The notes below the pieces were generated by a model. That model was not told where the DNA came from. It saw only the letters and a program-made list of their open reading frames with translations, and did not search any database. A stretch of 44,390 nt of DNA, from NCBI GenBank assembly GCA_937899625.1, contig CALCCB010000139.1, positions 1-44,390 of the forward strand, given 5' to 3'. Positions 6,326 through 36,803 of this stretch are shown here, one piece after another. Position numbers and translations under genes: made by a program. Source of the stretch: an uncultured Bacteroidota bacterium (GTDB taxonomy: Bacteria > Bacteroidota > Bacteroidia > Flavobacteriales_D > Crocinitomicaceae). How positions within the stretch are numbered: the stretch's first letter is position 1; every line of letters starts with the position of its first letter.

Positions 6326-6342
6326 AGTAATGGTATTTAATA

Positions 6343-6380
6343 CAATTAGTAAATTAAAAATAGTACTTTTTACAATAAGC
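6343..6380 (-). promoter_or_regulatory. Promoter with third, weaker copy of the inverted-repeat operator
   Basis: On the minus strand GCTTATTGT (6372-6380), a 7-nt spacer and a poor second arm ACTATTTTT (6356-6364) are followed by AAT, then TACTAATTG (6343-6351), a degenerate -7 box. The first arm matches the zwf and susC sites in 8 of 9 positions. The ATG at 6325 lies 18 bp further on. Assignment to the Nudix regulator is inferred. Confidence 0.6.
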
Positions 6381-6391
6381 TCCAAATTTTT

Positions 6392-7096
6392 TCACATCTT
6401 GAACCTGAAATTTCTTTGATTAACAAGCTTCTCGAATTTATGTTCATCAAATGAAAATAATTTCGCAGGTCTGTGTTTCACATTCTTTTGTTTCTCATTA
6501 TGCTCAATGAGCGGAATCGGTTTTATTTTTTTTCTAAAGTTTGCTTTATTCAAATTAACCTTATAAGCATATTCGTAAAGCTGCTGCAGTTCATTCAAGG
6601 TAAATTTATCCGGAAGCAAATCGAAACAAATCGGCTCATTACTTAGTTTGATTCTCAATAATTCAAGCGAGCTATTAAAAATTTCATTGTGATCAAAAGC
6701 TAATTTAGGAATCCTTTGAATTGGAACCCACTTGACTTCATTAGCCCAAGACGAAGCAATTGCATTCACCTCATCAATTTTAACCATTGCAAAATAAGCA
6801 CACGTAATTACTCTTCCTTGAGGATGTCTGTCGGGTTTTCCAAAAGTTTGCGATTGATGAAGTTCAATATTCTTAATGTTCGTGAGATCGAAGAGTATTC
6901 TACTTGCAGCTTCTTCCAAATCCTCCTCCGGGTATACAAGGTCACCGGGTATAGCCCAATCACCTTTGAATGGATCCATATTTCTTTTGATAAGCAGAAG
7001 TTTAATTTCTCCTTCTTCAAAACCAAAGATCAAGCAATCGACTGAGAGCGAATATGAAAAGAACTTTTCAAATTCTATTTTATAATTATGGGTCAT
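6392..7096 (-). CDS. Nudix-family transcriptional regulator (AraR/NrtR-like)
   Basis: The protein has 234 residues. Residues about 14-145 form a Nudix-type domain (LIFGFEEGEIKLLLIKR, WAIPGDLVYPEEDLEEAA). Residues about 155-232 form a C-terminal winged-helix DNA-binding domain (FTLNELQQLYEYAY, NLNKANFRKKI). The Nudix box (residues 51-74) is degraded: the REUXEE core reads RILFDL, so the metal-binding glutamates are gone and hydrolase activity is unlikely. Members of this family in Bacteroidota, such as the arabinose regulator AraR, use the domain to sense a small molecule. The gene overlaps the GH3 gene by the 4 bases ATGA, so it is translated with the glucan locus. It is the likely binder of the inverted repeats at 6356, 15936 and 21453. 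The effector is probably a sugar or sugar phosphate of the glucose pathway, but nothing in the sequence shows which. Confidence 0.85.
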   Translation of the reverse strand: MTHNYKIEFEKFFSYSLSVDCLIFGFEEGEIKLLLIKRNMDPFKGDWAIPGDLVYPEEDLEEAASRILFDLTNIKNIELHQSQTFGKPDRHPQGRVITCAYFAMVKIDEVNAIASSWANEVKWVPIQRIPKLAFDHNEIFNSSLELLRIKLSNEPICFDLLPDKFTLNELQQLYEYAYKVNLNKANFRKKIKPIPLIEHNEKQKNVKHRPAKLFSFDEHKFEKLVNQRNFRFKM

Positions 7097-9405
7097 TTCT
7101 TGTTAAAGAAAAAATTAATTTTTTGATTACCTACCGTTAACACATAGCTCCCTGATTCCAGTATTTTATTTTCATCGTTATCATAGAAAATAAGATCTTC
7201 TGAATTAATTGTGAAGGTTTCTTTTTTAAGCTCCCCAGGATTCAACTCGATCTTTCGGAATCGCTTCAATTTTTTCCCTTCTGGAGTAAAAGTCGCGTAT
7301 TCGTCCGTCAGATAAAGCTGAACTATTTCATTTGTTGAGAATTGTCCCTTATTCTTGATGTCGACACTCACAATCAAATTTTCTCCTTCGGATAAAAGAT
7401 CTGAGGAAATGGAAATATTTGAATATTCTACTTCTGAATATGAAAGACCATATCCAAAATCCCATTGAGGATCGTATGCGCTAAAATCACCTGATTTAGA
7501 TCTATCCACACTCTTTGGGTGATCATAAAACTCTATTACACCATCATATTTAGGATAGGTATATGGTAACTTACCTGAGAAGTTTTCCTTACCGTATAAC
7601 AGCTTAACGATCGCATTTGCACCGTAATCTCCTGGTAAATAACATTGTACGATTGCTCCAGACTTATCTACAATCTCTCTGATGATTCTCGGTCTACCCT
7701 CCAGTAATAAAATGACTACGGGTTTTCCCAGTTCATATGCAATTTCAGCTAGGATCAATTGCTCCTTGTCAAGATTCAAGGAATGAATATCTCCTGGTTT
7801 TTCTGTTGACGGGGATTCACCCAAACACAAAATGATTATATCAGATTCTTTTGCCTTTTTCCTGTAGTCATCAAGATCCAGGTTGCGGGTTTTTTCAAAT
7901 CCACTTTCATAGAACAGCTCTGCACCTTTGGAAAAAAGAACATTTCCCTTTCCCAGGAATGATTCAAAACTTTGCTTTATAGTTTTACAACCTACTGTAT
8001 TGAAATTTGTATCAGCCCCCTGCCAGGTATGTGTCCATGCGCCATTAAGATAAACGAGATTGTCTGATGTCGGTCCCGCAACTAACACTTTCTGATTCTT
8101 TTTAAGAGGTAATATGTTATTCGTGTTTTTTAATAAAGTGATGGACTCCAATGCTGCTTTTTCAGCCAACGCTTTAAATTCTTCAGATGCAAAATTTGGG
8201 TAATCCTTGATCTCAAAATTCTGAAGCTCAAACAATCCTAATTTTTGTTTCACCTTCAATATTCGTCTTACCGCATCATTAAGTCTTTCGGTATCGATCT
8301 TACCCTCATTAACTGCCTTGACCATTATTTCACAATACTCTTTGTATTGAGGACTCAAAGGAACCATACTCATGTCCACACCTGCGTTAAAAGCAGATAT
8401 AAATGCATCTTCTAATGTGGATGAAGTCTTATGCACAGTGTGCAGCATTATGAAATCTTCCCAGTCGGAAACAGCAAAACCTTCGAAGCCAAATTCACCT
8501 TTTAATACTTCGGTGAGAAGATGATAATTAACATGGCCGGGCACTCCATTTACAACTCCACTATTGATCATCACAGTTAATGCTCCTGATTCAACTGCTT
8601 TTTTGAATGATGGCAAATACAGTTCTCTCATATATTTCTCAGGGATCCAAGCAGGTGTTCTGTCTCTTCCACTGAAAGAAGCACTGTATCCAACGAAATG
8701 TTTCATGCACGCAGCCACATGCAGGGAGTCAATGTTGTCAGCATTTTCACCTTGATACCCCTTTATCATAGCACTTCCCATCTCAGCACATAAATAAGGA
8801 TCTTCCCCGAATGTTTCGAAGTGTCTTGACCATAGTGGCTGTCTTCCAAGATCGAGCACCGGAGAAAAATTCCAAGGAATACCAGAGGCTCTTACCTCAT
8901 ATGCTGTTGCTTCAGCAACTCGTTTTGTTAAATCAGTATTCCATGTCGCCGCTAAACCAATTTCCTGTGGAAATAATGTACTGCCTTTGGCATAATTCAT
9001 CCCGTGTATTGCGTCAATTCCATATATGACAGGGATCTTAGTTTGACCAGATAAATAGTGCTGATGCACAGATTTATATACTGTACTCCATTCTTCCTGA
9101 CTTAAGGTATGATAACCAACATTGAGCACAGATCCTACCTTGTATTTCAGCAAGGCCTCTTTTAAATTATTCTCATTCAATTCAATTGGAGAAACAGCTC
9201 TATCGTTTTCAAATTTTGTGATCACATCGAGTGTAATCTGACAAGTCTGACCAACTTTTTCCTCTACAGTCATTTTGGAAAGTAAAGCTTCTATTGGGTC
9301 AAGCTGTGTATTTTCTTCAACTGTAACTATAATAGGGCTCGTTACACCGCAAGAGAATAAAATGACAGTCAACGATGAGACTAAAAGTTGTACAGCACCT
9401 TTCAT
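7093..9405 (-). CDS. GH3 beta-glucosidase, lipoprotein
   Basis: The protein has 770 residues, the usual size for BglX-type GH3 enzymes. A lipoprotein signal ends at C19 (TVILFSC). The N-terminal TIM-barrel shows IPVIYGIDAIHG, FSPVLDLGRQPLW, MKHFVGY and GFAVSDW; D314 of SDW is the expected nucleophile. The alpha/beta sandwich follows (VLVAGPTSDN, ILCLGESPSTEKPGD, where a glutamate is the likely acid/base), then a fibronectin III-like C-terminal domain (WDFGYGLSYS, VQLYLTD, LKRFRKIEL). It should release glucose from short beta-1,3- or beta-1,6-gluco-oligosaccharides. The residues after C19 (GVTSP) lack the acidic surface-export signal, so it probably faces the periplasm. It is 5 bp downstream of GH16 and overlaps the regulator gene by 4 bases. 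Oligosaccharide preference cannot be read from sequence. Confidence 0.93.
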   Translation of the reverse strand: MKGAVQLLVSSLTVILFSCGVTSPIIVTVEENTQLDPIEALLSKMTVEEKVGQTCQITLDVITKFENDRAVSPIELNENNLKEALLKYKVGSVLNVGYHTLSQEEWSTVYKSVHQHYLSGQTKIPVIYGIDAIHGMNYAKGSTLFPQEIGLAATWNTDLTKRVAEATAYEVRASGIPWNFSPVLDLGRQPLWSRHFETFGEDPYLCAEMGSAMIKGYQGENADNIDSLHVAACMKHFVGYSASFSGRDRTPAWIPEKYMRELYLPSFKKAVESGALTVMINSGVVNGVPGHVNYHLLTEVLKGEFGFEGFAVSDWEDFIMLHTVHKTSSTLEDAFISAFNAGVDMSMVPLSPQYKEYCEIMVKAVNEGKIDTERLNDAVRRILKVKQKLGLFELQNFEIKDYPNFASEEFKALAEKAALESITLLKNTNNILPLKKNQKVLVAGPTSDNLVYLNGAWTHTWQGADTNFNTVGCKTIKQSFESFLGKGNVLFSKGAELFYESGFEKTRNLDLDDYRKKAKESDIIILCLGESPSTEKPGDIHSLNLDKEQLILAEIAYELGKPVVILLLEGRPRIIREIVDKSGAIVQCYLPGDYGANAIVKLLYGKENFSGKLPYTYPKYDGVIEFYDHPKSVDRSKSGDFSAYDPQWDFGYGLSYSEVEYSNISISSDLLSEGENLIVSVDIKNKGQFSTNEIVQLYLTDEYATFTPEGKKLKRFRKIELNPGELKKETFTINSEDLIFYDNDENKILESGSYVLTVGNQKINFFFNKK

Positions 9406-9410
9406 TTTTT

Positions 9411-10502
9411 CTATTGAAATACACGTACGTAATCAACATACATGGTCTGAGGAAAAACAGATGTTGCATCGGGACTTCCTGGCCAATTACCACCAACTGC
9501 CACGTTAAGAATTAAAAAGAAATTCTCTTGAAACTCGCTTAATTCAGCTGGCGTAATATCTATCTGGCTGTATTGAACATCATCCACTAGCCACTTAATT
9601 GAGTTAGCATCCCAAATAATTGAAAATACATGAAATTCATCCGCAAACTTACCAGCGGCCAATGAGAAATCGTTGCCATATTGTGCATGCCCTGCTTGTT
9701 CCCAATGTGCTGTTCCATATACCGTCCTATCATTAAATCCATCTCCACCGATTAGTTCAACGATATCTATTTCTCCACAAGACGGCCACCCGGTAGATGT
9801 TATATTATCCCCTAACATCCAGATAGCCGGCCAAATACCTTTTGAATAAGGGAGTGCAGCACGAACATCAACCCTTCCATATTTCCATGATTTCAGCCCT
9901 TGTGTTTTCAAACGTGTTGAAGTGTACTCCTGTGAATTGAAGGTTTCTGACTTTGCATGAATTTCTAAATATCCGCTGTTCAACGAATAATTTTGATCTG
10001 TGTAATATTGTAGTTCATTATTCCCCCAACCGGATGATCCAGTACCAATGTCAAATGTCCAATCTGGCGATAAAGTCGTTCCATTGAACTCATCACTCCA
10101 TACCAACGTGTATCCTGGATAAGAAGATGAAGAAACATATCCGGAAGAAGGTGCTCCCGAAGGTGTTTGGTCCACAAAAATTACCACATTTTCAGAACTT
10201 TCAATAAAGTCTAAATGGGTTGTGTTGGCTCTTACCGTAATTTTGTAAGTACCTGACTGAGCAAATGTATAATTTGCAGTACCTGTCTGTGTCTCTACCC
10301 AAACTGTATCCGTAAGATCATAGAATACAATAGTATAGAAGTTTGCATTATCTGCAGAAGCATTGACTGTAACATCGCCACTGGTATGAGAAATATCGAC
10401 CTGCAGATTAGAGGGATCTACAGGATTAGGAACCACTTCATCTTTTACACATGAAGCCGAGATTAGAAGCATTAATGCCAGAAGGGATAGAAGATTTTTC
10501 AT
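9411..10502 (-). CDS. GH16 endo-beta-1,3-glucanase (laminarinase), surface lipoprotein
   Basis: I start at the ATG at 10502 (MKNLLSLLALMLL), 5 bp after the preceding stop, rather than an in-frame ATG at 10535 that overlaps that gene. The protein has 363 residues. The lipobox ends in SASC (C18), followed by VKDE, which fits the K-(D/E)2 surface export signal known from Flavobacteriia. Residues about 25-112 are a PKD-like beta-sandwich. Residues about 130-363 are a GH16 domain with WSDEFNG, GWGNNELQYYT, GIWPAIWML, and the catalytic motif EIDIVE, in which E244 is the nucleophile, D246 assists and E249 is acid/base. The extra residue in this motif is typical of laminarinases. It should cut laminarin at the cell surface into oligosaccharides for SusCD import. 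Laminarinase rather than another GH16 activity is likely but not proven. Confidence 0.93.
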   Translation of the reverse strand: MKNLLSLLALMLLISASCVKDEVVPNPVDPSNLQVDISHTSGDVTVNASADNANFYTIVFYDLTDTVWVETQTGTANYTFAQSGTYKITVRANTTHLDFIESSENVVIFVDQTPSGAPSSGYVSSSSYPGYTLVWSDEFNGTTLSPDWTFDIGTGSSGWGNNELQYYTDQNYSLNSGYLEIHAKSETFNSQEYTSTRLKTQGLKSWKYGRVDVRAALPYSKGIWPAIWMLGDNITSTGWPSCGEIDIVELIGGDGFNDRTVYGTAHWEQAGHAQYGNDFSLAAGKFADEFHVFSIIWDANSIKWLVDDVQYSQIDITPAELSEFQENFFLILNVAVGGNWPGSPDATSVFPQTMYVDYVRVFQ

Positions 10503-10507
10503 TTTAA

Positions 10508-11350
10508 TTATTCGCTTTTTAGTTTCAAATACCACAACAAACCACCTTCATGATGCTTGTACTGCAACTGCATTGTTGTATCTGTCATTTCTAAGATATT
10601 GTATGTTCGAACGCCTGTAAAAAACCCTATGAATGCATTATTCGAAATTGAAATTGAATTTTGGGTTCCTTCGGTTAATTGCCATGATTCATTGAGTTGG
10701 TCTGTGTAGGGTGCCGTGTAATCAAATAAATTCTGGAACGAACCTAGAAAAGTCGAAGAAAGACTATTATGAATGTACACATCTCCATTGGTAATCATGT
10801 CAAATTTGAAGGCGTTCAAATGGAAGACATAACTATCATCATATATTCCGCACCCCGGTTTTTCATTGGGATTTGCTGACCACCATTCAGGAATTGCACC
10901 AGCTGCGCTTTCAGGGTCTGGCCCTACACCAATGTGAGCAACTGCTGCGGAATCAACATGCCAAACTTTGAATCCAGGTCCTGATACACCACCGGTTAAC
11001 ATATTGTAAATTGGGTTGTTCAACAATGATAAATCATCCTGATCAATGGTTATCGTCTGCGTAGAACTAACACTACCACCTTGTCCAAAAACAGTTAGCT
11101 TTACAATGTACGTCCCTGCATATGGATACTCCCCAACTATATTAGCTCCTTGCTTTTTAATTCCATTGCCAAGATCCCAAAGATATTGCTTGTCTTCACT
11201 TGCCGCAGCGAATTCAATAATATTATCACTGGCAGCGGAGACAGCATAAGTGAATTGTGCATCCGCAGAAGTCGGAGCAGATCCCATTATAGGATCCTTT
11301 GTGCAAGAGAACAAAGTAAGGGCGACTATAATAAAAATCGAAATTCTCAT
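10508..11350 (-). CDS. PKD-domain lipoprotein, probable surface glucan-binding protein of the locus
   Basis: The protein has 280 residues. A lipoprotein signal ends in TLFSC (C16), followed by TKDP, which is close to a surface export signal. Residues about 30-105 form a PKD domain (YLWDLGNG, YPYAGTYIVKLTV). Residues about 120-280 form a beta-rich domain (GFKVWHVDSAAVAHIGVGPD, EWWSANPNEKPGCG, GLLWYLKLKS) whose VGPD and WW features faintly recall the glucan-binding-like module of the 4334 gene. Position directly after SusD and before GH16 is that of SusE/SGBP-type proteins, which hold the polysaccharide at the surface. No catalytic motif was recognised. The gap to susD is 10 bp. Function is inferred from position and domain type. 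Confidence 0.75.
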   Translation of the reverse strand: MRISIFIIVALTLFSCTKDPIMGSAPTSADAQFTYAVSAASDNIIEFAAASEDKQYLWDLGNGIKKQGANIVGEYPYAGTYIVKLTVFGQGGSVSSTQTITIDQDDLSLLNNPIYNMLTGGVSGPGFKVWHVDSAAVAHIGVGPDPESAAGAIPEWWSANPNEKPGCGIYDDSYVFHLNAFKFDMITNGDVYIHNSLSSTFLGSFQNLFDYTAPYTDQLNESWQLTEGTQNSISISNNAFIGFFTGVRTYNILEMTDTTMQLQYKHHEGGLLWYLKLKSE

Positions 11351-11360
11351 AACTTAAAAA

Positions 11361-12821
11361 TTAATATCCTGGATTTTGTGACCAAGTGCCTCCAGCCAGG
11401 TCGATCTCAACTTGAGGAATTGGAAATAATTCATGTTTGCCTGGCACGAAGCCTGAAATTTTTGTTGACGCTTGTCCAGTTCGTACAAGATCAAAAAATC
11501 GATGACCCTCACCCGATAATTCAAATCTTCGTTCATTGTATATAACATTCAATGAATTTACCGGAATCCCCTGTATTCCAGCCCTGCTTCTAATTGAATT
11601 GACCAGCTGTTGCGCAGTGGATTGATTACCAAGTTGAAAATTAGCTTCAGCAAGCATTAGAAGCACATCTGCATAGCGAATCACTCTATAGTTAACTGGA
11701 CTTGTCAGGTCATTATCTGGCAATCCTATTTCTCCCTGACGCTTAATGTACTTGTTATTGTAATATCCGGTATGACCGCCTGCGCCTATCGCATAAGAAA
11801 TTGATTCAGGATTTGGCTGAGCGGCAATAAAAGCCTCGATATCTAAAACAGAATATCCTCTTCTTGGGTCTGACGAGTTGAATGCGTTATACAGATCTTG
11901 AGTTGGGAGATTGTAGCTGTTACCATCCCCATAAACTGGACCATTGTATTGCCTAATACCATGAAATCCAGGAGCTGCATTTCCTTCAAGACATATTAAA
12001 CATCCATAACTTCCACCTTCCAATCCTGAATATTCAATATCAAAAACTGTCTCAGAATTATTTTCATTCGAAACTGAAAATAATTGTTCATAATCACTGA
12101 TCAAAGCATAAACACCACTGTTTTTAACTTCGTTCAAGGTATTAGCCGCTTCTGAATATTTTCCCTGATATAAATATGCTTTACCTAAGAGTGCTAAAGC
12201 TGCTCCTTTGGAAGCTTTTCCTTTGACTGATGATGTCCATGGTAATACGGATGCTGCATAGATCAGATCATCCTCTATCTGAGCATACACCTCTGAAGCT
12301 GGAGATCTTGGAATATTTCTTGCCTCTTCTATTCCTATTCTTTTATCAATGATTAAAGGAACATCTCCAAAGAATTTTACCAGTTCAAAGTAGTAATACG
12401 CTCTCAAAAAACGTGCTTCAGCAATCAATTCTCCTTTCCCCGGAAAATCAATTTTATCCTTGTTTTCCATGATGTAATTCACTCGAGTGATTCCAGCATA
12501 ATTCCAACGAAAAATATTTCGAAGCTCATTATTCACAGCCCCATGTGACATTGCATCGATTTGATGAAGGCCTTGAGAGTCATTTACACTTTCTCCTCCC
12601 GCAATAGAGTTGTCGGATGCTATTTCACCAATCCAGAGTGATAAAAATGATCCCTGCAAAAGATCATACGCCCCGACTAATGCACGTTCATAATCTTCCT
12701 TCGTCTCAAAGAAGTTTTCCGCATCTTGGGTATAAGGCGGATCAACATTCAGGAATTTTTCACATCCAGAAAAGATGACCCCAAATAATCCGATAGTAAC
12801 GATAAGTATTCCCTTCTTCAT
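11361..12821 (-). CDS. susD: SusD/RagB-family nutrient-binding outer-membrane lipoprotein
   Basis: I start at the ATG at 12821 (MKKGILIVTIGLFGVIFSGC, C20 lipidated), one base after the susC stop; the longer open frame to 12926 would overlap susC deeply. The protein has 486 residues. SusD hallmarks are CEKFLNVDPPYTQDAENFF, YERALVGAYDLL, EARFLRAYYYFELVKFFGDVPLI, KGAALALLGKAYLYQGKY, the C-terminal VNYRVIRYADVLLMLAEA, and NERRFELSGEGHRFFDLVRTG. SusD caps the SusC pore and binds the incoming oligosaccharide. Together with GH16 and GH3 downstream the cargo is most likely beta-1,3-gluco-oligosaccharides. Confidence 0.95.
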   Translation of the reverse strand: MKKGILIVTIGLFGVIFSGCEKFLNVDPPYTQDAENFFETKEDYERALVGAYDLLQGSFLSLWIGEIASDNSIAGGESVNDSQGLHQIDAMSHGAVNNELRNIFRWNYAGITRVNYIMENKDKIDFPGKGELIAEARFLRAYYYFELVKFFGDVPLIIDKRIGIEEARNIPRSPASEVYAQIEDDLIYAASVLPWTSSVKGKASKGAALALLGKAYLYQGKYSEAANTLNEVKNSGVYALISDYEQLFSVSNENNSETVFDIEYSGLEGGSYGCLICLEGNAAPGFHGIRQYNGPVYGDGNSYNLPTQDLYNAFNSSDPRRGYSVLDIEAFIAAQPNPESISYAIGAGGHTGYYNNKYIKRQGEIGLPDNDLTSPVNYRVIRYADVLLMLAEANFQLGNQSTAQQLVNSIRSRAGIQGIPVNSLNVIYNERRFELSGEGHRFFDLVRTGQASTKISGFVPGKHELFPIPQVEIDLAGGTWSQNPGY

Positions 12822-12822
12822 A

Positions 12823-15800
12823 TTAAAATGCAATTTGTAATCCAACCATGTACGACTTTGCCTGCGGGTATAAACCATAATCCACACCTGCTGCCAATAC
12901 ACCTGCTGACCCAATGTCTGGATCAAAACCTTGATATTTCGTTAATGTGAATAGATTATTCGCAGAAACGTACACTCTCAAGTTTTCAGTTTTCATTTTC
13001 TTCAATATCTTCTTTGGCAACTTATAGCCCAATTGAATGTTCTTCATTCTTAAGAATGATCCATCCTCCACAAAATAGGACGAAAAGACTGTGTTTCTCG
13101 TTGGTTCGGTAGTCACTCTCGGATGCTCATTTGTGCTTCCTGGTCCTGTCCAACGATCTATTATATAACCCAATTGATTCGCATAAGGTTGTTGTCTTTC
13201 AAAGTTTCGGATGATCTCCTGACCTATAACAGCATAGAAATTTGCCGATAAGTCGAATGCCTTGTATTTCATATTTAGAGCAAGACCCATTGTGAAATCA
13301 GGAATTGGAGAACCTAAATTCGTTTTATCTGAATCGTCGTTAAAATTGATGATCCCATCGCCGTTCTGATCGACAAAACGAATATCTCCAGGTTTTGCCC
13401 CTTCCTGATATACGGCAGCATTATCAATCTCTTCCTGAGTTTGGAAAATTCCATCCATTTCATAACCAAAGAAATAGCCGATTTCATATCCCTGCTCGAA
13501 TCGTGTAGCAATATCACCACCAACCCCGAAGCTTGCTCCCGGAATATAATCTACTCCCTCCGGAACACTCATAACGACGTTATTTACCATGGTATACGTA
13601 AAGTTGAACCCTGTTACAAAATCCTTTTTGGTATCAGTTGTGTAGCCTAAGTCGAATTCAAATCCTTTGTTACTTACATCACCAGCATTGATGATCGGTG
13701 GATAACCACCGGGGCCGTATGAACCAAGAATTGCTGTAACCTCAGGTTGGAATAAAAGATCGAAAGTATTCTTGATGAAATAATTTGCGGTAAAATCAAT
13801 GTTCTTTAAAAACGTTAGATCCACACCTACATTGAACTGGCGTGTTGTCTCCCATTTTAAATCCGGGTTAGCTGGTCTTCCAATTGCCACTCCCTGTGTG
13901 ATGACATCGTCAAATACATAAACTCCTTCGCCATTCAGTAAGGCTCTGTATGCGAAATTTGGAATTTGATCATTCCCTGAAATACCATAGCTCATTCTGA
14001 TCTTGAACAAGTCGATCCACTTCGGTTTGAAAAAGTCTTCGTCAGACAATAGCCATGCTCCCGAAACAGTAGGGAAAAACCCATATCGACTGTTCTGACC
14101 AAATTTACTTGATCCATCCCTTCTCAAAATAGCGGAGAATAAATATTTGTATTTATAAGAGTATTCAGCTCTTAAAAATGCCGACAGTAATCTTTCGGTG
14201 AATTCCCATGAACCTGTGTTGTTCAGGTACCCACCATCGGCAGTATTTGCAGAAATATCAGCATACTCTATTGAGTTGTTCGGAATATTAAATGCTGTCC
14301 CGTTAAGAGATTCTCCTCTCCTTTGGAATATACTAATACCTCCTGTTCCCTTCACACGATGAACAGAATCAAAAATCTTATCATAATTCAAATAACTCTC
14401 ATAGGTGAGGTCTGTGAAAGATGATCTTTCTTCATACACAGCCGCACCCCTTTCAATAAACACATCTTCAGCAATCTCTACTAATGGAGACTCAAGATTA
14501 GCATTCAATGCAGTGTTTGCATACTTACCATCCCCATACCATACCAATGGAGAAAACACTTTCGTGTTCACCTGAGCATAATTATAGTTGAATCTATTCG
14601 TAAAAGTTAAATGATCGTTGAAGGTATAAACGAGCTCTTCCTTACCTACAAATTTATTCGCAATGCTCCCATTGTATTGATTGTTGATTTGAGCAATTGG
14701 ATTAATGATGTCACTAACTTCTTCAAGGTAAGAATAATTACCGTCCGGTGTGTGAACGGGTTCATCTGGGAATGCATTAATGGTATTGTATAAAACTGAT
14801 CCAATTCCATTCTCCGGTAACGTACTGCGAAAATCATTTGAGTAAAGGAATACAGAATTGAAATCCATTTTCTTCGAAAGTTCAGTCTGGAAGTTCAATC
14901 GAGCATTGTAACGAGAGAAATTAGCTTTCTCTCCACCAACTATTCCTGTCTGATCAAAATAACCTAAACCAAGAGAATATTTGGTGGTATTTGTTCCACC
15001 AGTCAAACTAATATTATGACTTTGTACAGGAGTTCTTTGAAAAACTGAATCCTGCCAATTTGTTCCCTCTCCTAATTCAGTATTAACATATGGCATAGGC
15101 TGACCACCCAATCCAAACATTTCATTCTTTATTACTGCATATTCTCTTGCGTTTAACAAGTCCAGTCTTTTAGCGGTCGTCTGAATTCCGTAATACCCGT
15201 TGTATTCTACTCTTGGTTTGGCATTGATCCTTCCTTGTTTTGTTTCTACAATGATGACCCCGTTTGCAGCACGAACTCCATAGATTCCAGCTGTCGCGTC
15301 TTTCAGTACATTGATCGATTTAATATCCGCAGGATTCAATGCGTTCAATCCTTCTGAATCATATACGACACCATCAACCAGAATCAACGGATCATTATCA
15401 CCAAACGTAGAGAGCCCTCTTATTCGAATGTTTGCGCTTCCTCCAGGAGAACCTGAATTGGTACTGATCGTAACCCCGGATACTTGTCCTTGAAGTGCCT
15501 GATCCATTCTGGAGACGTTCATTTTTTCAACATCATCGCCCTGCACTTTAGAAGTTGCACCGGTAAATTCTTTGCTTTTCGCTTCACCATATCCAACAAC
15601 AACTACCTCTTCAAGATCCTGTGCCTCCGAAATCAAAACGACATCCAACTTTGTATTTGATCCTATAAGGCTTTCATACCTTTGGTAACCGATGAAATAG
15701 AAAGAGATTGTATCTGTTTCTGATACTCCCTCAAGCACATACTTTCCATCAAAATCGGTTTTTGTACCCTTGTTCTTGCTTTTTACGCTAACTGTAACAA

Positions 15801-15906
15801 ATGGCATTGCTTCACCTTTTTCATTGGTGACAGTACCACTAACATTGATTTGTGACTGAACAGTGAATGAACATACCAGTACAAAATAGATCAGTATTTG
15901 TCTCAT
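12823..15906 (-). CDS. susC: SusC/RagA-family TonB-dependent outer-membrane transporter
   Basis: The protein has 1027 residues. It starts with a signal peptide (MRQILIYFVLVCSFTVQSQ), then a carboxypeptidase-regulatory-like domain (about 21-95: VSGTVTNEKGEAMPFVTVSV, TDFDGKYVL), a TonB box (LEEVVVVGYG), and a plug domain (about 115-230: ALQGQVSGV, NIRIRGLSTFG, PLILVDGV, AGIYGVRAANGVIIVETKQG). The remainder is the beta-barrel, ending in YMVGLQIAF with a terminal phenylalanine as usual for outer-membrane barrels. It imports oligosaccharides with TonB energy. It is the first gene of the glucan operon; the 57 bp in front hold the -7 box and inverted repeat at 15925-15960. No terminator separates it from gap, so read-through from the Entner-Doudoroff operon is also possible. 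Confidence 0.96.
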   Translation of the reverse strand: MRQILIYFVLVCSFTVQSQINVSGTVTNEKGEAMPFVTVSVKSKNKGTKTDFDGKYVLEGVSETDTISFYFIGYQRYESLIGSNTKLDVVLISEAQDLEEVVVVGYGEAKSKEFTGATSKVQGDDVEKMNVSRMDQALQGQVSGVTISTNSGSPGGSANIRIRGLSTFGDNDPLILVDGVVYDSEGLNALNPADIKSINVLKDATAGIYGVRAANGVIIVETKQGRINAKPRVEYNGYYGIQTTAKRLDLLNAREYAVIKNEMFGLGGQPMPYVNTELGEGTNWQDSVFQRTPVQSHNISLTGGTNTTKYSLGLGYFDQTGIVGGEKANFSRYNARLNFQTELSKKMDFNSVFLYSNDFRSTLPENGIGSVLYNTINAFPDEPVHTPDGNYSYLEEVSDIINPIAQINNQYNGSIANKFVGKEELVYTFNDHLTFTNRFNYNYAQVNTKVFSPLVWYGDGKYANTALNANLESPLVEIAEDVFIERGAAVYEERSSFTDLTYESYLNYDKIFDSVHRVKGTGGISIFQRRGESLNGTAFNIPNNSIEYADISANTADGGYLNNTGSWEFTERLLSAFLRAEYSYKYKYLFSAILRRDGSSKFGQNSRYGFFPTVSGAWLLSDEDFFKPKWIDLFKIRMSYGISGNDQIPNFAYRALLNGEGVYVFDDVITQGVAIGRPANPDLKWETTRQFNVGVDLTFLKNIDFTANYFIKNTFDLLFQPEVTAILGSYGPGGYPPIINAGDVSNKGFEFDLGYTTDTKKDFVTGFNFTYTMVNNVVMSVPEGVDYIPGASFGVGGDIATRFEQGYEIGYFFGYEMDGIFQTQEEIDNAAVYQEGAKPGDIRFVDQNGDGIINFNDDSDKTNLGSPIPDFTMGLALNMKYKAFDLSANFYAVIGQEIIRNFERQQPYANQLGYIIDRWTGPGSTNEHPRVTTEPTRNTVFSSYFVEDGSFLRMKNIQLGYKLPKKILKKMKTENLRVYVSANNLFTLTKYQGFDPDIGSAGVLAAGVDYGLYPQAKSYMVGLQIAF

Positions 15907-15924
15907 ACTTTTAAGTTGTAGGAA

Positions 15925-15960
15925 CGAATATAATTAATTATTTTACTATTTACAATAAGT
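15925..15960 (-). promoter_or_regulatory. susC promoter with inverted-repeat operator
   Basis: On the minus strand ACTTATTGT (15952-15960), a 7-nt spacer and the arm AAAATAATT (15936-15944, 7 of 9 positions of the ideal arm) are followed by AAT and then TATATTCG (15925-15932), one base off the Bacteroidota -7 consensus TAnnTTTG. The spacing from operator to -7 box is identical to that at zwf. The ATG is at 15906. The operator covers the place where a -33 box would be. Confidence 0.8.
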
Positions 15961-15963
15961 CAA

Positions 15964-16977
15964 TTAAATCAAACTTTTTCCATGCACATATTGAATCAAA
16001 TCCAGCAACTTGTTTGAATAACCTGCTTCATTGTCATACCACGAAACAATTTTGACAAAATCATCCCCTAACATCATACCGGCATTCGCATCAAAAATGG
16101 AAATCCTTTTATCTCCGATGAAGTCTGATGAAACAACAGGTTCTTCAGTATAACCTAAAACGCCCGATAATTTTTTTTCAGATGCTTCTTTCATGGATTT
16201 CTTGATTTCATCATACGTCGTTGGTTTTTTTAAATTAACTGTAAAGTCGATCAATGAAACATTCGATACAGGAACTCGAAAGGAAGTTCCGGTGAGACAA
16301 CCGTTCAATTCTGGTATAATTTTACCAATTGCAGCAGCCGCTCCGGTAGTGGATGGAATAATATTTTGAAACGCACCCCTTCCTCCTCTCCAATCTTTAT
16401 TTGACGGACTATCAATTGGTTTTTGAGTTGCGGTAACAGCATGCACAGTTGACATTAAGCCAGACTTTATCCCAAAATTCTCATTTAAAACAAAAGCTAT
16501 GGGTGCTAAACAATTCGTCGTGCAGGATGCATTTGAAATAATGTTTATTTCACCACTATAATTGTGATGGTTAACACCCATTACATACAAAGGTGTATCG
16601 TCTTTAGGGGGGGCTGACATAATAACTTTTCGAGCACCAGCGATCAAATGCTCATTTGCTTTTTCTGACGTAAGATTTACACCTGTAGATTCAACAACAT
16701 AATTTACTCCTACTTCTCCCCAACCAATTTCTCTGGCTTCCCTTTTGTTGGTAATCCTAATCCTATTACCATTGTAAAACAAATCCCCATTGACACTCTC
16801 TATTACTCCTTCAAGCAAACCATGAGTTGAGTCATATTTGAGCATGTATGCTAAATAATCAGCATCATATAAATCATTTATCGCGCAAATTTCAATTTTT
16901 GGGTTATTCACGGCAGCGCGAAAAACCATTCGGCCAATTCGACCAAATCCGTTTATACCTATTCTTACTTTTTCCAT
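15964..16977 (-). CDS. gap: Glyceraldehyde-3-phosphate dehydrogenase
   Basis: The protein has 337 residues, full length. The Rossmann motif is [16 protein letters not shown]35 in AINDLYDAD fits NAD preference. The catalytic cysteine is C152 in [14 protein letters not shown], with H179 in STVHAVT. Other conserved stretches are [20 protein letters not shown] and [12 protein letters not shown]. It turns glyceraldehyde-3-phosphate into 1,3-bisphosphoglycerate with NADH production. As last gene of the Entner-Doudoroff operon it takes up one of the two products of KDPG aldolase. It starts 3 bp after the eda stop. Many Bacteroidota carry more than one gap gene; whether this is the main one cannot be told here. 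Confidence 0.96.
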
Positions 16978-16980
16978 TAA

Positions 16981-17541
16981 TTATTTTATTACCCAACTGC
17001 CTCCAACCGAAATGACATTATCCAAGGAAAGGTATTCTTGATGATTACTTTCATTTATTCCTCCTGTAGGACAAAATTTAACTTCATTAAAAACTGACCC
17101 ATACGATTTTAAGGCTTCAATACCTCCATATAGATTAGCAGGGAAAAACTTGAAATACCTCCAACCGATCTCCATACCACGAATTATTTCACTTGGAGTT
17201 GCGACTCCCGGAATAAATGGGATTCCGCTATGTTCAAGATTTTGAACCATTGTAGATGTCAAACCCGGACTTACCATGAAGGCCACCCCCATATCTACGC
17301 ATTTATTGATCTGTTGAACTGAAATTACCGTTCCAACACCGACATCCATGCTTTTGCCATACCTCTTTTTAAATTCAGCGATTGCTTCCCAGGCATAAGG
17401 AGTTCTAAGTGTAATTTCAATACAAGTGATGCCCTTGGCACTGAGGGCAGAATAGACTTTATCTATTTCACTTTCCTCATGGATCGAAACAACCGGAATG
17501 ATCGGATTGCGTTCAAGAATATCAAGTATATTATTCTGCAT
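16981..17541 (-). CDS. eda: KDPG aldolase, short C-terminus
   Basis: The protein has 186 residues. It cleaves 2-keto-3-deoxy-6-phosphogluconate to pyruvate and glyceraldehyde-3-phosphate. E42 (CIEITLRT) and the Schiff-base lysine K131 (WRYFKFFPA) are present, with the phosphate-binding PTGGI and GGSW near the end. The usual length is about 205-225 residues: this copy stops right after GGSWVIK, so the C-terminal helix of about 20 residues is missing. The stop is followed after 3 bp by the gap start. The gene sits 5 bp after edd. The hydroxyketoglutarate aldolase activity often found in this family cannot be excluded. Confidence 0.93.
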   Translation of the reverse strand: MQNNILDILERNPIIPVVSIHEESEIDKVYSALSAKGITCIEITLRTPYAWEAIAEFKKRYGKSMDVGVGTVISVQQINKCVDMGVAFMVSPGLTSTMVQNLEHSGIPFIPGVATPSEIIRGMEIGWRYFKFFPANLYGGIEALKSYGSVFNEVKFCPTGGINESNHQEYLSLDNVISVGGSWVIK

Positions 17542-17546
17542 AATTT

Positions 17547-19346
17547 TTAAAATAGACTCGCCCCACTTTCGCTACTGCTAATCAGGGTTCTTAGTTTTGT
17601 AAACAATTCTCTACCATGACTTTCATGGACATAAGGTACAATTCGAGTCGCTCTATTATCGAACCCTTTCTCTAAACACTCAACCACTCCATTTTCAGCA
17701 TCCAATCGGATAAGATCACCTGTTTGAATTTTTGAAATGTTTCCACCCTCTGAAGCCTCCGGATATAAATGAATGGCCGAAGGAACTTTTCCAGAAGCAC
17801 CAGACATTCGGCCATCCGTAACAAGTCCAACTTTATACCCTCTTTTCATTAGAATTGTCAGAGAAGGCGTCAATTTATGCAGCTCCGGCATACCTTTGTG
17901 CTTTGGACCCTGAAAAGGGATCACCGCAATAAAATCCTTATTTAACTCATCATTTTTAAATGCCTTAATAAGGTCATCCTGATCATCAAAGACAATTGCC
18001 TCTGCTTCTACAATAAGATTTTCGGGATCCACGGCTGATGTCTTTATTACTGAAGTACCAATGTTTCCTTTAAGAACTTTTATTCCTCCAGTAGGAGAAA
18101 ACGGATTCTTCACAGAACGCAGAATACTCTCATTCAAAGATTGTTCAGACCCATTTACAAATTCCAGTTCACCGTTAATTATTTTCGGTTCCTTGGTGTA
18201 AGAGTTTAACCCTTTTCCTTTCACTGTCATTACGTCCTCATGTAACAATCCACTTTCCAATAATGTTCTTATCAGGTATCCCATTCCTCCTGAAGCATGA
18301 AAGTGATTTACATCTGCTGCACCATTTGGATAGATTCTACAGAGTAATGGCACTATCTCCGACAACTCTGAAAAATCATCCCAGTCGATAATAATTCCGG
18401 CCGCTTTAGCGATAGCGGGTATATGCAATGTATGATTCGTTGAACCACCCGTAGCGAGTAATCCAATAATACCATTTACAATCGTTTTTTCATTGACTAG
18501 AAATCCAATTGTATGTTCTAAACTTTTCTGATTGATGTTATTGACAAGTGTACTTACCGCTTCCTTATTCAAGGCATTTCTCAAATCGGTTCCAGGATTT
18601 ACAAAACTACTTCCAGGCAATTGTAAACCCATGATCTCCATGAGCATTTGATTGGAGTTGGCAGTTCCATAAAAAGTACAAGTTCCAGGAGAATGGTATG
18701 AATCAGATTCTCCTTTTAACAACTCTTCTCTTCCTATCTTCCCTTCAGCGAACAACTGTCTGATCCTCGCTTTTTCTTCATTTGGTATTCCGCTTTCCAT
18801 AGGCCCTCCCGGAACAAAAATTCCTGGCAAATGGCCAAAACTTAAATTACCAATCATTAAACCCGGAACAATTTTGTCACAAATCCCCAGGTTCATTGAA
18901 CCATCAAACATATCATGGGACAACGCAATAGCAGTCGAGAATGCAATCACATCTCTACTCAACAGAGAAAGGTCCATCCCTTCTTTTCCCTGAGTGACTC
19001 CATCACACATTGCAGGAGTCGCTCCTGCCACCTGCAAAGTAGCATTGCATTCATTGGCAAATTTCCTTAATAGTTTAGGATAATCCTCGTAGGTTTTATG
19101 AGCGGATAGCATATCATTGTATGCAGTAACTAATCCGATATTTGGAAGCTTACCTTCAGCGATTGTATTTTTATCCTTTTCACCACATCCCGCAAAACCA
19201 TGCGCCAGATTGCCACAAGACAATTCTGATCTGTATGAAAGAGGTTTGAAATTACTCTCTATTTTTTTTAAATAGTTATTCCTTTCTTTCTCTGACCTTG
19301 ATCGGATCCTATCTGTTATCTCTTCAATTTTTCTATTTATCTGCAT
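17547..19346 (-). CDS. edd: 6-phosphogluconate dehydratase
   Basis: The protein has 599 residues, close to the normal 600-608. It belongs to the IlvD/Edd family. Three cysteines expected to hold the iron-sulfur cluster are seen: C114 ([12 protein letters not shown]), C156 ([10 protein letters not shown]) and C223 ([15 protein letters not shown]). The last motif and [13 protein letters not shown] mark it as Edd rather than dihydroxyacid dehydratase. The C-terminal [20 protein letters not shown] is conserved. It converts 6-phosphogluconate to KDPG. Its start overlaps the pgl stop by 14 bp. Confidence 0.96.
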
Positions 19347-20010
19347 AAAAAATATGTATATCAGGTCTTTGTTTCAATATGTCATGGATCGGAAGGTCCC
19401 TTTCATTGTCCAACAAAACTTTCTTCTTATCCTTTCCGGTAATGATCAAATAAATAAACTTTGAATCACATATTAATTCTTTGCTACATGTAATCCTCCT
19501 TGTTGGCGAGATAGGTGCATTCGTATTGTATACTTCCTTGTCATTTGATCTTCTCGGGAGCTCAGAATTTTCATCCCCGGGAAAAATGGAAGCCGTATGG
19601 CCGTCAGTACCCATTCCCAGAATTGATAAATCAGTGCGTTGTTTAAAAGGAACATATGCCTCGTTTACCAATTCAAGATTTTTCTGATAACTATCCAAAC
19701 GATATATCATCCCTTTGATGTCAGACTCAATTCCCAGACACTCTTTTATCATTTTTTCGTTACTGTTTCCATCATTGGTCTCAACAAATCTTTCATCGAT
19801 CAGTCCATATTGGAGATTTGGATTACCCTTGAATGATTCTTTACCAAGTCTCAAATACAATGGTTTAGGTGTACTACCTCCAGATAGAAGAACATTGCAT
19901 TTTTTGTTCTCCCTTAACGCATGTTTTATTTCCCTGGAAATCATATCTCCCAGAATGTCAAACATCAAGTCTGCATTGTCAAACTCATTTATTTTTATTT
20001 CGTCTGCCAT
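19333..20010 (-). CDS. pgl: 6-phosphogluconolactonase
   Basis: The protein has 225 residues, of the DevB/SOL type. Motifs are NVLLSGGSTPKPLY, YGLIDERFV, SNEKMI and SILGMGTDGHTASIFPG. It hydrolyses 6-phosphoglucono-lactone from Zwf to 6-phosphogluconate. It overlaps zwf by 16 bp and edd by 14 bp, so the genes are tightly coupled. Confidence 0.95.
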   Translation of the reverse strand: MADEIKINEFDNADLMFDILGDMISREIKHALRENKKCNVLLSGGSTPKPLYLRLGKESFKGNPNLQYGLIDERFVETNDGNSNEKMIKECLGIESDIKGMIYRLDSYQKNLELVNEAYVPFKQRTDLSILGMGTDGHTASIFPGDENSELPRRSNDKEVYNTNAPISPTRRITCSKELICDSKFIYLIITGKDKKKVLLDNERDLPIHDILKQRPDIHIFYADK

Positions 20011-21419
20011 TGCACTCCTTTTTCCAATATTTTATCTCCTGGTCCCCATGTTCCTGATTCGTATAAATCAATAGGTACATTGTCAATCCAGTTTTTTGTA
20101 ATAGACTCTATCCAGATCCATGCGGCTTCAAGTTCGTCATTTCTCATGAACAAAGTCTGGTTTCCTCGCAGTACGTCAATGATCAAACGCTCATATGCAT
20201 CCGGCATACGTTCTTCAAAAGAATCTACAAAATCAAGTTTCAATGAAATCGGTTTGAATCGGTATCCTCCTGGTCCGGGAACTTTACTTAATTGAACCAA
20301 TTCGATCCTCTCTTCAGGTTGCAACCTAATGATGAGCTTGTTCTGCAGTGCGTGCTGAGATTCAGGGAATATATTGTGAGCAATCTCCTTAAAATTGATC
20401 ACAATATCTGAATACCGTTTTTTCATTCGCTTACCTGTTCTTAGGTAAATCGGCGTATTTTTCCATCTCCAATTGTCGATGTAGGTTCTTATTGCAACAA
20501 ATGTTTCTGTATCGGAGGAGTACTGATCAATATCTTCCAAATAAGAATTCACTCTTTGTTCGCCAATTTTCCCTCTTGTATATTGTCCTTTTACAATCTG
20601 TTGCTGAATGGTGTCTTTATCGAATTTTCTAAGGGATTGTAGAACCTTCAATTTTTCATTTCGAACTGAATTAGCATCCAGGCTCGCTGGAGGCTCCATG
20701 GCTACCAGACATAATAATTGAAGGAGGTGATTCTGCACCATATCCAATAAAGCTCCTGTTTTGTCATAATAACCTGCACGATTTTCAACGCCTAAACTTT
20801 CTGAAACGGTAATCTGGATGTTATCAATATTATCTCCGTTCCATGATTTTTCGAACAAATGATTTGCAAAACGCAATACCATCAAATTCTGCACAGTTTC
20901 TTTCCCCAGATAATGATCTATTCGAAAGATTTGACTTTCTTTGAAGCTTTGGCCTATTACATTTGAAATTTTCCTGCTTGAATTGAGGTCATGTCCCAAA
21001 GGTTTTTCAATGACCACCTTACTTTTTTTATGGATAAGGTCGGTTTCTTTTAGCGCAGCACAAATCTCTCCATAAGCGGAGGATGGCACCGAAAAATAAA
21101 AGACTCTCTGCCAATCTGGATTAATTTCCAATAAATCTTTTAACGGACTGTATGCCTGAACTGAATTGACAGGTAAACAAATTACCTTAAGTCGATCAAT
21201 GAAACTCGCCATGTTTTCGGAAGAAATGGCATCCGTCGGAAGAAATTTTTTCAATTCATTTATAATTTCTTCATTATGTTTTTTTCGAACAATAACAACG
21301 ATCTCAAAGTTCATTGTGAGCTGATCATCCATATATCTCTGGAAAAGTGCAGGGATGATCTTTCTCTTGGATAAATCTCCATCACCACCGAAAATAACTA
21401 TATAAAATGGATGTATCAT
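19995..21419 (-). CDS. zwf: Glucose-6-phosphate dehydrogenase
   Basis: The protein has 474 residues. The N-terminal coenzyme motif reads FGGDGDLSKRKIIPALF, close to the usual GASGDLAKRK. The substrate and catalytic motif RIDHYLGKE is at residues 166-174, followed by TVQNLMVLRFAN. The EKPLGHDL motif is also present. It oxidises glucose-6-phosphate and starts both the Entner-Doudoroff and oxidative pentose phosphate routes; here edd and eda follow directly. It is the first gene of the operon, with promoter and the best inverted repeat at 21442-21477. NAD versus NADP preference cannot be read safely. Confidence 0.96.
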   Translation of the reverse strand: MIHPFYIVIFGGDGDLSKRKIIPALFQRYMDDQLTMNFEIVVIVRKKHNEEIINELKKFLPTDAISSENMASFIDRLKVICLPVNSVQAYSPLKDLLEINPDWQRVFYFSVPSSAYGEICAALKETDLIHKKSKVVIEKPLGHDLNSSRKISNVIGQSFKESQIFRIDHYLGKETVQNLMVLRFANHLFEKSWNGDNIDNIQITVSESLGVENRAGYYDKTGALLDMVQNHLLQLLCLVAMEPPASLDANSVRNEKLKVLQSLRKFDKDTIQQQIVKGQYTRGKIGEQRVNSYLEDIDQYSSDTETFVAIRTYIDNWRWKNTPIYLRTGKRMKKRYSDIVINFKEIAHNIFPESQHALQNKLIIRLQPEERIELVQLSKVPGPGGYRFKPISLKLDFVDSFEERMPDAYERLIIDVLRGNQTLFMRNDELEAAWIWIESITKNWIDNVPIDLYESGTWGPGDKILEKGVQWQTK

Positions 21420-21441
21420 TTCGCTTAATTTTGACTAATAA

Positions 21442-21477
21442 CAAATATAATTACTTATTGTTTATTTTACAATAAGT
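21442..21477 (-). promoter_or_regulatory. zwf promoter with perfect inverted-repeat operator
   Basis: A perfect palindrome with arms ACTTATTGT and ACAATAAGT and a 7-nt spacer lies at 21453-21477. On the minus strand it is followed by AAT and then TATATTTG (21442-21449), a full match to the Bacteroidota -7 consensus. The zwf ATG is at 21419. The remaining 130 bp up to the permease stop at 21609 show no further clear element. Confidence 0.85.
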
Positions 21478-35801: not shown

Positions 35802-36803
35802 TTAATCTCTTCTGCCAAGCATCAAGCCCAGTACGATCTCATGACCTCCTGAACTCACCTGGTTGAATCTCGATAATGAGAAATCATATGAGTAACCAAA
35901 CTTGAACTTGTTGTTCACATTCAGACCCACCATTCCGATCATCGCATCCTTGTGACGGTAAGATACTCCCATCCACAACCATTCCTTGTACTCCAGCTGT
36001 AATGATCCATCGATCGATACAGGAGCAGGTGCCATATACTTCACCAATACTGCCGGCATCAACGTCAAGTTATCATTGATCGGGAACTTGTATCCTCCTG
36101 TGATATTGAAGTGCATCTGTGTATTGAAGTTGGCTGTTCCAGATCCGAACTCTACAAAGTCCTTGGAAAGGTTATCTCCACTGATCCCTAAGAACGCGTT
36201 CTTTGAATACAAGTACATCCCAACGCCCAAGTCAAGGATATTCATGCTTGAATTCCCTGAATAGAAATTTGCATATACATTATCTGTTGCGTTGTTATAG
36301 TTCGTAGCATCCATGATGTTACCCACAACAGCCTTGTCCTGCAAAAACGTATTGTTCGATAATCCGATCCTTGTTCCCAATGATAAATTCAGCTTCTTTG
36401 ACATCGGTACGTGTACCGCATACGTCAAGCTCGCATTCATTCTTCTGAAGGCACCGTACTGATCTGCCAACAACTGCCCTCCCAAAGCATGCTTCAACTT
36501 CCCGGTCTTGATCTCTGGATTCCTTACAGGACCAGAGCTCACACGAAGTGCAGGGTTGTATGGCGTTCTCTTCTTAAAGTTCAGCAGTGATGCCACCGAT
36601 ACATAGGCTGTCTTCGGAGCATCCGTCAAACCCATCCATTGCCAACGTCCACTCATCGTTACATCAACGAAGTCATACACCCCAGCAGCGCCCGGGTTGA
36701 TCATGAACTGATTTCGCAAGTATTGACTATACTGTGGATTCTGCTGTGACATCGCAAAACCTGTTGTAAGTCCTAAAGCCAGTGTTAAAGCTATCTTACG
36801 CAT
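35802..36803 (-). CDS. PorP/SprF-family outer-membrane protein
   Basis: The protein has 333 residues with a signal peptide (MRKIALTLALGLTTGFAMS). Family hallmarks are QNPQYSQYLRNQFMINPGAAG, VTMSGRWQWMGLTDAPKTAYVS, GGQLLADQYGAFRRMNASLTYA, VGMYLYSKNAFLGISGDNLS and a final barrel strand. PorP/SprF proteins are outer-membrane barrels each paired with a neighbouring type B T9SS substrate, to which they help export or attach (established for SprF and SprB in Flavobacterium johnsoniae). Here the partner is the 1867-residue adhesin 28 bp upstream. Codon use is biased like that of the next gene. Confidence 0.93.
   Translation of the reverse strand: MRKIALTLALGLTTGFAMSQQNPQYSQYLRNQFMINPGAAGVYDFVDVTMSGRWQWMGLTDAPKTAYVSVASLLNFKKRTPYNPALRVSSGPVRNPEIKTGKLKHALGGQLLADQYGAFRRMNASLTYAVHVPMSKKLNLSLGTRIGLSNNTFLQDKAVVGNIMDATNYNNATDNVYANFYSGNSSMNILDLGVGMYLYSKNAFLGISGDNLSKDFVEFGSGTANFNTQMHFNITGGYKFPINDNLTLMPAVLVKYMAPAPVSIDGSLQLEYKEWLWMGVSYRHKDAMIGMVGLNVNNKFKFGYSYDFSLSRFNQVSSGGHEIVLGLMLGRRD

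Follow-up and report, generated by a model that had tools for sequence, protein, structure and literature searches.

A Nudix-family regulator and a shared operator probably join glucan uptake to the Entner-Doudoroff pathway in an uncultured member of the Crocinitomicaceae

Most described regulators of polysaccharide utilization loci (PULs) are hybrid two-component systems (HTCS), SusR or extracytoplasmic function (ECF) systems that sense glycan, and in Proteobacteria HexR represses zwf, edd and eda, its inducer being sugar-derived. AraR and XylR are described as NrtR-family sugar regulators of Bacteroides, and AraR is known to connect PULs with genes of catabolism (PMC3878776, PMC4666351). Our study concerns a Nudix-domain regulator and a palindromic operator in an uncultured bacterium of the Crocinitomicaceae (assembly GCA_937899625.1, our genome G000; 2.93 Mb in 171 contigs, 94.6% complete); the window, as we call the whole stretch of DNA analysed, is its contig CALCCB010000139.1 (G000:C139, 44,390 bases). 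Along the minus strand lie an Entner-Doudoroff (ED) operon, zwf-pgl-edd-eda-gap, then a glucan PUL, susC-susD-PKD-GH16-GH3-regulator, and then a secreted CBM48/type IX secretion system (T9SS) gene. We consider it highly probable that this regulator and the operators before the three units (operators 1-3) make up one glucan-to-glucose regulon; we infer binding, effector and sign of control, and hold repression and a glucose effector each less firmly than this core. If the reading is true, one regulon of the window's lineage covers both the uptake of glucan across the outer membrane and the central catabolism of glucose.

The case is carried by the sites themselves, their recurrence in relatives, their co-occurrence with the regulator and a match between recognition residues and half-site bases. 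The original prediction placed one element before zwf, susC and the secreted-protein gene, and all three lie on the minus strand where it put them, with arms of 9/9+9/9, 9/9+7/9 and 8/9+5/9 (operators 1, 2 and 3; Table 1). The zwf element reads ACTTATTGT-aaaataa-ACAATAAGT and runs into AAT-TATATTTG, the susC element reads ACTTATTGT-aaatagt-AAAATAATT and runs into AAT-TATATTCG, and that of the secreted-protein gene reads GCTTATTGT-aaaaagt-ACTATTTTT followed by AAT, with no clear -7 box evident there. The AAT common to all three and the -7 boxes at zwf and susC, which begin 3 nt past an element that covers the -33 region, also agree with what had been predicted. Both boxes fit the Bacteroidetes -7 consensus, given as TAnnTTTG (PMC7366714); TAnnTTYG occurs 56 times on the two strands of the window. 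The end of the element lies 33 nt from the start codon at zwf, 29 nt at susC and 30 nt at the secreted-protein gene, where we count from the ATG at 6325 (its longest open reading frame, ORF, starts with TTG at 6385).

The sites follow the regulator through related genomes. Our sample of 99 genomes, the window's own included, comprised 24 with a regulator at least 59% identical, 12 with one at 43-51% and 63 others. The 24 genomes hold 40 sites against 5 for the control pattern. For the 63 others, some of which have a more distant regulator, the counts are 27 and 39; at least one site is present in 21/24 and 16/63 genomes, respectively. We do not lean on the enrichment in the 12 intermediate genomes (54 against 4), of which 11 belong to other families and one, G045, to the same family, because 27 of the 54 sites come from two genomes, G083 and G093, many within predicted ORFs. 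These two (loci L216-L231) carry 13 and 14 ATTGT palindromes against none in the control. In G039 one identical sequence makes up five of eight matches, four of them near contig starts, and is possibly the end of a mobile element.

Besides those before zwf, described below, sites recur before susC in seven genomes (G004, G008, G012, G013, G023, G024, G046), before GH3-regulator genes in ten (G002, G006, G009, G013, G016, G025, G040, G052, G055, G059) and directly after the regulator gene in, for example, G002, G009, G022, G052 and G059. In G035 one operator (L103:13816-13840) separates zwf-pgl-edd-eda-gap from a 292-aa ORF that is read divergently and has GH3 and the regulator behind it; judged by its gene order, this arrangement is a compact version of the window's layout.

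Within three mismatches the window's own genome has only four matches, at zwf, susC, C136:7692-7716 and C168:8962-8986. The C136 site precedes the gene of a T9SS-secreted protein that is about 50-58% identical (184-267 aligned residues) to proteins directly flanking a site in G004, G090 and G055. The C168 site (L006:8962-8986), at three mismatches, spans the start codon of a gene for a gluP-like permease of the MFS family, of glucose/galactose type (E 8e-55, under the curated cut-off) and 44% identical (213-223 aligned residues) to MFS proteins near a site in G006 and G025. In those two genomes the site is common to the MFS gene and a divergent glycosidase-like gene, about 170-180 bp from the MFS start. 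This gluP-like character and homology led us to reconsider pure chance as the source of the C168 site, which is probably a genuine further operator. The three promoters first proposed thus stand within a wider set that the second secreted-protein gene and the permease probably join, and which can be read as a single pathway made up of secreted glucan proteins, SusCD, GH16/GH3, permease, ED enzymes and glyceraldehyde-3-phosphate dehydrogenase (GAPDH). This genome and its relatives show the opposite of a pattern scattered at random and unconnected with genes for glucan or glucose. A homologue (31%, C19) of a BadF-type ORF sits at none of the listed own-genome sites; the BadF-type ORF is divergent from zwf in G023, and G003 has an ORF of the same length.

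The residues predicted to read the operator vary together with its sequence. The BtAraR-DNA complex is reported to have Lys179 contacting the first G of GTGT and Arg180 intercalating there (PMC4666351), and we typed regulators by the pair at AraR positions 179-180. The 350-bp flanks of 59 distinct regulators other than Lys-Arg hold 42 sites against 1.85 in shuffled sequence, and those of 67 Lys-Arg regulators 52 against 1.35, where distinct means non-identical translated stretches, so that close relatives remain. A half-site scan over the same distance, blind to the variable base, gave T76 and G4 (with A3 and C1) around 60 Lys-Ala, Lys-Gly, Thr-Arg and Lys-Pro regulators (31 with a site), and T10 and G82 (with A11 and C1) around 67 Lys-Arg regulators (44 with a site). 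This suggests a new specificity code, in which Lys-Arg goes with GTGT half-sites and Lys-Ala, Lys-Gly and Thr-Arg with TTGT; the correlation falls on plausible residues in view of the Lys179 and Arg180 contacts.

The same division appears at zwf itself. Among 34 of the 35 genomes with a zwf match (G002, with zwf split over contigs, was left out; zwf of G052 is fragmentary), a second NrtR-type gene of the Lys-Arg type, about 37-42% identical to the window regulator, lies just upstream of zwf in 17 loci. All 17 carry an ACTTAGTGT or ACTAAGTGT arm (AGTGT) 81-95 nt before the aligned zwf start, and the G-type score exceeds the T-type score in 15 of them. Ten of the 17 zwf loci that lack the paralogue are, by score, of ATTGT type (G000, G003, G012, G023, G035, G052, G075, G079, G090, G094), and one (G010) has no upstream DNA. 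The Fisher table accordingly holds 17 G and 0 T with the paralogue and 10 T and 1 G without it, leaving out ties, siteless loci and G010; the Fisher values for co-occurrence, half-site bases and zwf loci all treat related genomes as independent. At most zwf promoters the operator lies 2-4 nt from the -7 box, AGTGT and ATTGT classes alike.

The regulator protein matches the Pfam families NUDIX (PF00293) and NrtR_WHD (PF21906) above cut-off, and AraR_C. Its closest sequence in the PDB is BtAraR (E 1.4e-49), and its AlphaFold model (mean pLDDT 88) finds apo AraR (5dd4/5bs6) as the best PDB fold in Foldseek, with TM 0.80-0.83. The Nudix signature, described as GX5EX7REUXEEXGU (PMC4666351), reads GDLVYPEEDLEEAASRILFDLTNI here, with the REUXEE glutamates gone. 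A Nudix fold with an NrtR winged helix, an impaired Nudix signature and predicted palindromic operators at target promoters are the features of the NrtR family, and by its sequence the protein is an AraR-like member other than AraR. We rejected an AraR orthologue on account of the ATTGT-type site, the Asp-Leu at Gly48-Phe49 and two changes among the DNA contacts (Arg180 to Ala, Lys204 to His; Lys179, Asn181, Lys184 and Arg205 are retained). The four own-genome places adjoin glucan, ED, permease and secreted-protein genes rather than genes of arabinose use, for which no genome-wide search was made, and hold no NAD genes. At least 586 relatives of the regulator were confirmed, and the 80 that were kept nearly all carry Bacteroidota titles.

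The pocket favours an unphosphorylated sugar other than arabinose, for which glucose is the natural candidate, since the AraR pocket residues Arg34, Arg86, Phe129 and His131 are kept while Gly48-Phe49 has become Asp-Leu. The four residues are retained in every aligned regulator covering them, and Asp-Leu is found in all but one (G035 L130), in the window's clade and the ED-adjacent clade alike. An ED intermediate (glucose 6-phosphate, 6-phosphogluconate or 2-keto-3-deoxy-6-phosphogluconate, KDPG) or a laminari-oligosaccharide is a rather unlikely, though not negligible, effector in place of glucose: the regulon does join PUL and ED enzymes, and the pocket is altered at Gly48-Phe49 and at Phe36, which is Met. 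Set against these points, the three AraR hydroxyl-binding residues are retained, no new basic residue appears among the 11 pocket positions compared with AraR, and a periplasmic or outer GH3 enzyme would cut oligosaccharides before they reached the cytoplasm. Furthermore, a Lys-Arg-type relative in Pedobacter psychrodurus is arranged divergently to pfkA-x-gap, the two being separated by a GTGT site, a neighbourhood that points to glucose use and suggests a signal common to ED and glycolysis users.

We propose that the window regulator is a dimeric, sugar-responsive NrtR/Nudix repressor from a branch that is related to AraR and of glucose type. As long as inducer is absent, one ATTGT half-site of ACTTATTGT-N7-ACAATAAGT would be read by each winged-helix domain, and the bound dimer, lying across the -33/spacer region at zwf and susC and 3 nt from the -7 box, would block RNA polymerase. 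Imported and cut beta-glucan would supply an unphosphorylated glucose-type ligand, most likely glucose, which would bind the Nudix pocket and make the dimer release DNA, so that the ED operon, the glucan PUL and the secreted-protein gene would be switched on jointly. The regulator and GH3 genes share 4 nt, which makes the regulator gene part of the PUL operon, and the regulator would therefore control itself. The ED operon is often beside a Lys-Arg/AGTGT sister regulator in relatives, and in the window's lineage it carries the ATTGT site assigned to the PUL regulator.

Repression and activation had both been thought possible; the core-promoter position of the sites now favours repression. That the same regulator on the same operators acts instead as an activator, its ligand-bound dimer recruiting RNA polymerase upstream of the -7 box, we judge improbable. 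The zwf and susC sites do lie upstream of that box, and the 11-nt distance at susC of several relatives is nearer an activator position, but in the window both sites end 3 nt from the box and cover the -33 region, the C168 site spans the permease start codon downstream of an TATCTTTC box (read by eye), the 6326-6350 element abuts a start codon, and BtAraR is reported to be let go of DNA by its sugar (PMC4666351).

Several observations weigh against the regulon as we draw it. The -7-like box nearest the susC site is 11 nt off in G004, G008, G013, G023 and G024, as it is for the second G046 site. A site falls within 350 bp of just 19 of 46 Lys-Ala regulators, some of the others having one further away, at susC or GH3. 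At zwf, the AGTGT site of G059 and G040 is equalled or outscored by an ATTGT-like element lying 45 nt upstream of it; loci without the paralogue include three ties (G037, G056, G085) and two with no site (G058, G096); and G046 has an AGTGT site with no Lys-Arg paralogue found. G003 (96% complete) carries an ATTGT-type zwf site, yet no regulator was found in it, as would be expected if another transcription factor bound the palindrome and the Nudix regulator were a bystander. This we regard as very improbable, given the co-occurrence of sites with the regulator, the excess of flank sites over expectation, the residue-base match and the same N7 layout in the BT0365 oligonucleotide, reported as AAGTGT-N7-ACACTT (PMC4666351). 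The co-occurrence and the residue-base match, together with the finding that a query with the regulator gives no second match in its own genome at its stated completeness, support the earlier assignment of this protein as the predicted binder.

The statistics of the pattern itself are mixed. A matrix built from 27 sites hand-picked from same-family genomes, leaving out the window genome and its near-twin G012, ranks operators 1, 2 and 3 as the top three places in the window, with Markov-window expectations of 0, 0 and 0.04 per window at 27.2, 20.8 and 13.9 bits; the ranking is partly circular, since the training sites were themselves found with the zwf consensus, but this touches a side argument only and leaves the odds of the proposed regulon unchanged. 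A consensus-free test for inverted repeats in regulator flanks (any 9-nt arms, gaps 0-18) found gap 7 in 27/131 flanks against 10 expected and in 22/115 against 11, and does not single out N7, several other gaps showing similar excess. In the own genome the pattern matches 3 places at up to two mismatches, where the reversed control matches 1, and 4 against 10 at up to three, so that the raw count is unenriched at the looser setting; in the other genomes, which are out of sample, enrichment is clear. A degenerate pattern at up to two mismatches gives 27 forward against 43 control. Such common loose matches are what chance or compositional palindromes in AT-rich promoters would produce. This explanation is extremely improbable given the arms at zwf and susC, which match perfectly or nearly so, and the sites at the same genes in other genomes, and for operators 1 and 2 we found it untenable. 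Operator 3 alone is too weak genome-wide, 0.04 per 44 kb amounting to about 2.6 per genome, and a looser pattern fitted to it finds, at zero mismatches, C136, operator 3 and zwf only. It rests on its position, since, of the nine relatives sharing the regulator-CBM48 order, five (G004, G010, G012, G013, G015) match it at 14/18 or more in the same place; in the other four (G008, G011, G023, G024) the counterpart is below 14/18.

The regulator tree, whose midpoint root does not give the order of states, supports at 100/100 both the Lys-Ala clade of the window regulator, with 28 rows, and the ED-adjacent clade of Lys-Arg type, with 16; two changes are needed on it to account for the Thr-Arg label. 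The Zwf tree (33 rows) contains two lineages of ED operons. ATTGT predominates in the first, of 11 rows (7 T, 2 ties, 1 G and 1 lacking upstream DNA), and AGTGT in the second, of 17 rows (16 G, 1 T); the ATTGT label needs six changes on this tree, four of them forced by starred branches. G055 and G003 cross the lineage/operator lines, G003 being a long branch of unsure place. Because of these two lineages we rejected a simple change of operator in place as a sufficient account; the inheritance or transfer of entire operons also plays a part. We think it rather probable that sister Nudix glucose repressors in the Flavobacteriales divide, and have repeatedly exchanged, control of the ED operon by one base per half-site, that the window's PUL repressor took the operon over, and that loss of AraR's intercalating Arg is one form of the switch; Lys-Ala/Lys-Gly and Thr-Arg would then be two different ways of breaking Lys-Arg. 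Lys-Arg-type relatives also lie near a gap gene in L188, L190, L191, L192, L195, L196, L199, L203, L207 and L209-L215, in Pedobacter, Mucilaginibacter, Flavihumibacter and other hosts; in L195, the sole annotated one of these loci, pfkA-x-gap adjoins the regulator with GTGT-N7-ACAC between. These gap-adjacent relatives are likely a glycolysis regulon of the same regulator branch.

Table 1. Predicted operators and genes of the regulon in the window.
Feature	Position	Strand	Remarks
Operator 1, perfect 9-N7-9 palindrome ACTTATTGT-N7-ACAATAAGT, before zwf-pgl-edd-eda-gap	21453..21477	(-)	27.2 bits, rank 1
Operator 2, arms 9/9 + 7/9 (16/18), before susC	15936..15960	(-)	20.8 bits, rank 2
Operator 3, arms 8/9 + 5/9, before CBM48/T9SS gene	6356..6380	(-)	13.9 bits, rank 3
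Candidate weaker operator, absent from the original prediction, in tandem with operator 3 and directly at the start codon of the 4334-6325 gene	6326..6350	(-)	13.3 bits, rank 4
zwf, glucose-6-phosphate dehydrogenase	19995..21419	(-)	
pgl, 6-phosphogluconolactonase	19333..20010	(-)	match just under curated cut-off
edd, phosphogluconate dehydratase	17547..19346	(-)	
eda, KDPG aldolase	16981..17541	(-)	
gap, type I GAPDH, final ED operon gene	15964..16977	(-)	
SusC/RagA TonB-dependent transporter	12823..15906	(-)	
SusD-like protein	11361..12830	(-)	start chosen in analysis; longest ORF starts at 12926
PKD-domain PUL protein	10508..11350	(-)	
GH16 beta-glucanase, laminarinase-like	9411..10535	(-)	NCBIfam matches under cut-off
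GH3 glycosidase, probably beta-glucosidase	7093..9405	(-)	NCBIfam matches under cut-off
Nudix-domain regulator (NrtR family, AraR-like), degraded Nudix box, C-terminal winged helix	6392..7096	(-)	
Secreted T9SS protein with CBM48/AMPK1_CBM-like domains	4334..6325	(-)	

Laminarin is the likely substrate of the PUL, a grade we set no higher because the GH3 and GH16 matches lie under their curated cut-offs. The proposed link from laminarin to the ED pathway is supported, with the refinement that the ED operon also contains gap; we rejected the ED pathway as the sole route for glucose, since the same genome encodes a phosphofructokinase (PFK). Elsewhere the window encodes two giant T9SS-secreted surface proteins, one of 2744 aa that combines Ig-like, PKD and CUB domains (23001-31235) and one of 1867 aa with Ig-like domains (36832-42435), the gene of the latter adjoining a PorP/SprF gene (35802-36803).

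A single sensor of sugar appears to couple the import of glucan with a chosen branch of central metabolism, and the proposal predicts a function for a many-membered branch of Nudix repressors (at least 586 relatives). If true, it shows how control of a core metabolic operon can pass in nature from one regulator to another, and its two-residue, one-base code is directly testable against the solved AraR-DNA complex. Among the papers listed by our searches of the open-licence PMC literature, judged by titles and abstract openings, none names a Nudix regulator of ED or laminarin genes, nor did we meet there a code of Lys-Arg/AGTGT versus Lys-Ala/ATTGT. HexR and the window regulator belong to unrelated protein families, both linked to repression of ED genes, by prediction in the case of the window. 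NrtR of NAD metabolism from Shewanella oneidensis (PDB 3gz5/3gz6) has the family fold and winged helix in common with the window regulator, at 27% identity; its own ligand is ADP-ribose and its targets are NAD genes, the predicted window regulon being one of sugar, and its phosphate contacts Lys76 and Asn43 correspond to Leu67 and Met36 of the window regulator. XylR (BT0791), compared by its description, is likewise an NrtR-family regulator of Bacteroides clustered with its own sugar genes (PMC3878776, PMC4666351), though its targets are xylose genes. The closest counterpart is BtAraR (BT0354) of Bacteroides thetaiotaomicron (PDB 5bs6, 5dd4, 5ddg, 5deq), which like the window regulator combines a degraded-box, Nudix-like sugar domain with a winged helix, and for which inverted half-sites 7 bp apart and a regulon joining SusCD/glycanase operons to a cytoplasmic catabolic operon are described (PMC4666351). 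At about 36% identity, the window regulator has Ala for Arg180, His for Lys204 and Asp-Leu for Gly48-Phe49; it adjoins ATTGT sites where BtAraR has GTGT, it has, unlike AraR, no arabinose gene among its annotated neighbours, and its predicted targets are the genes of glucan use and the ED pathway.

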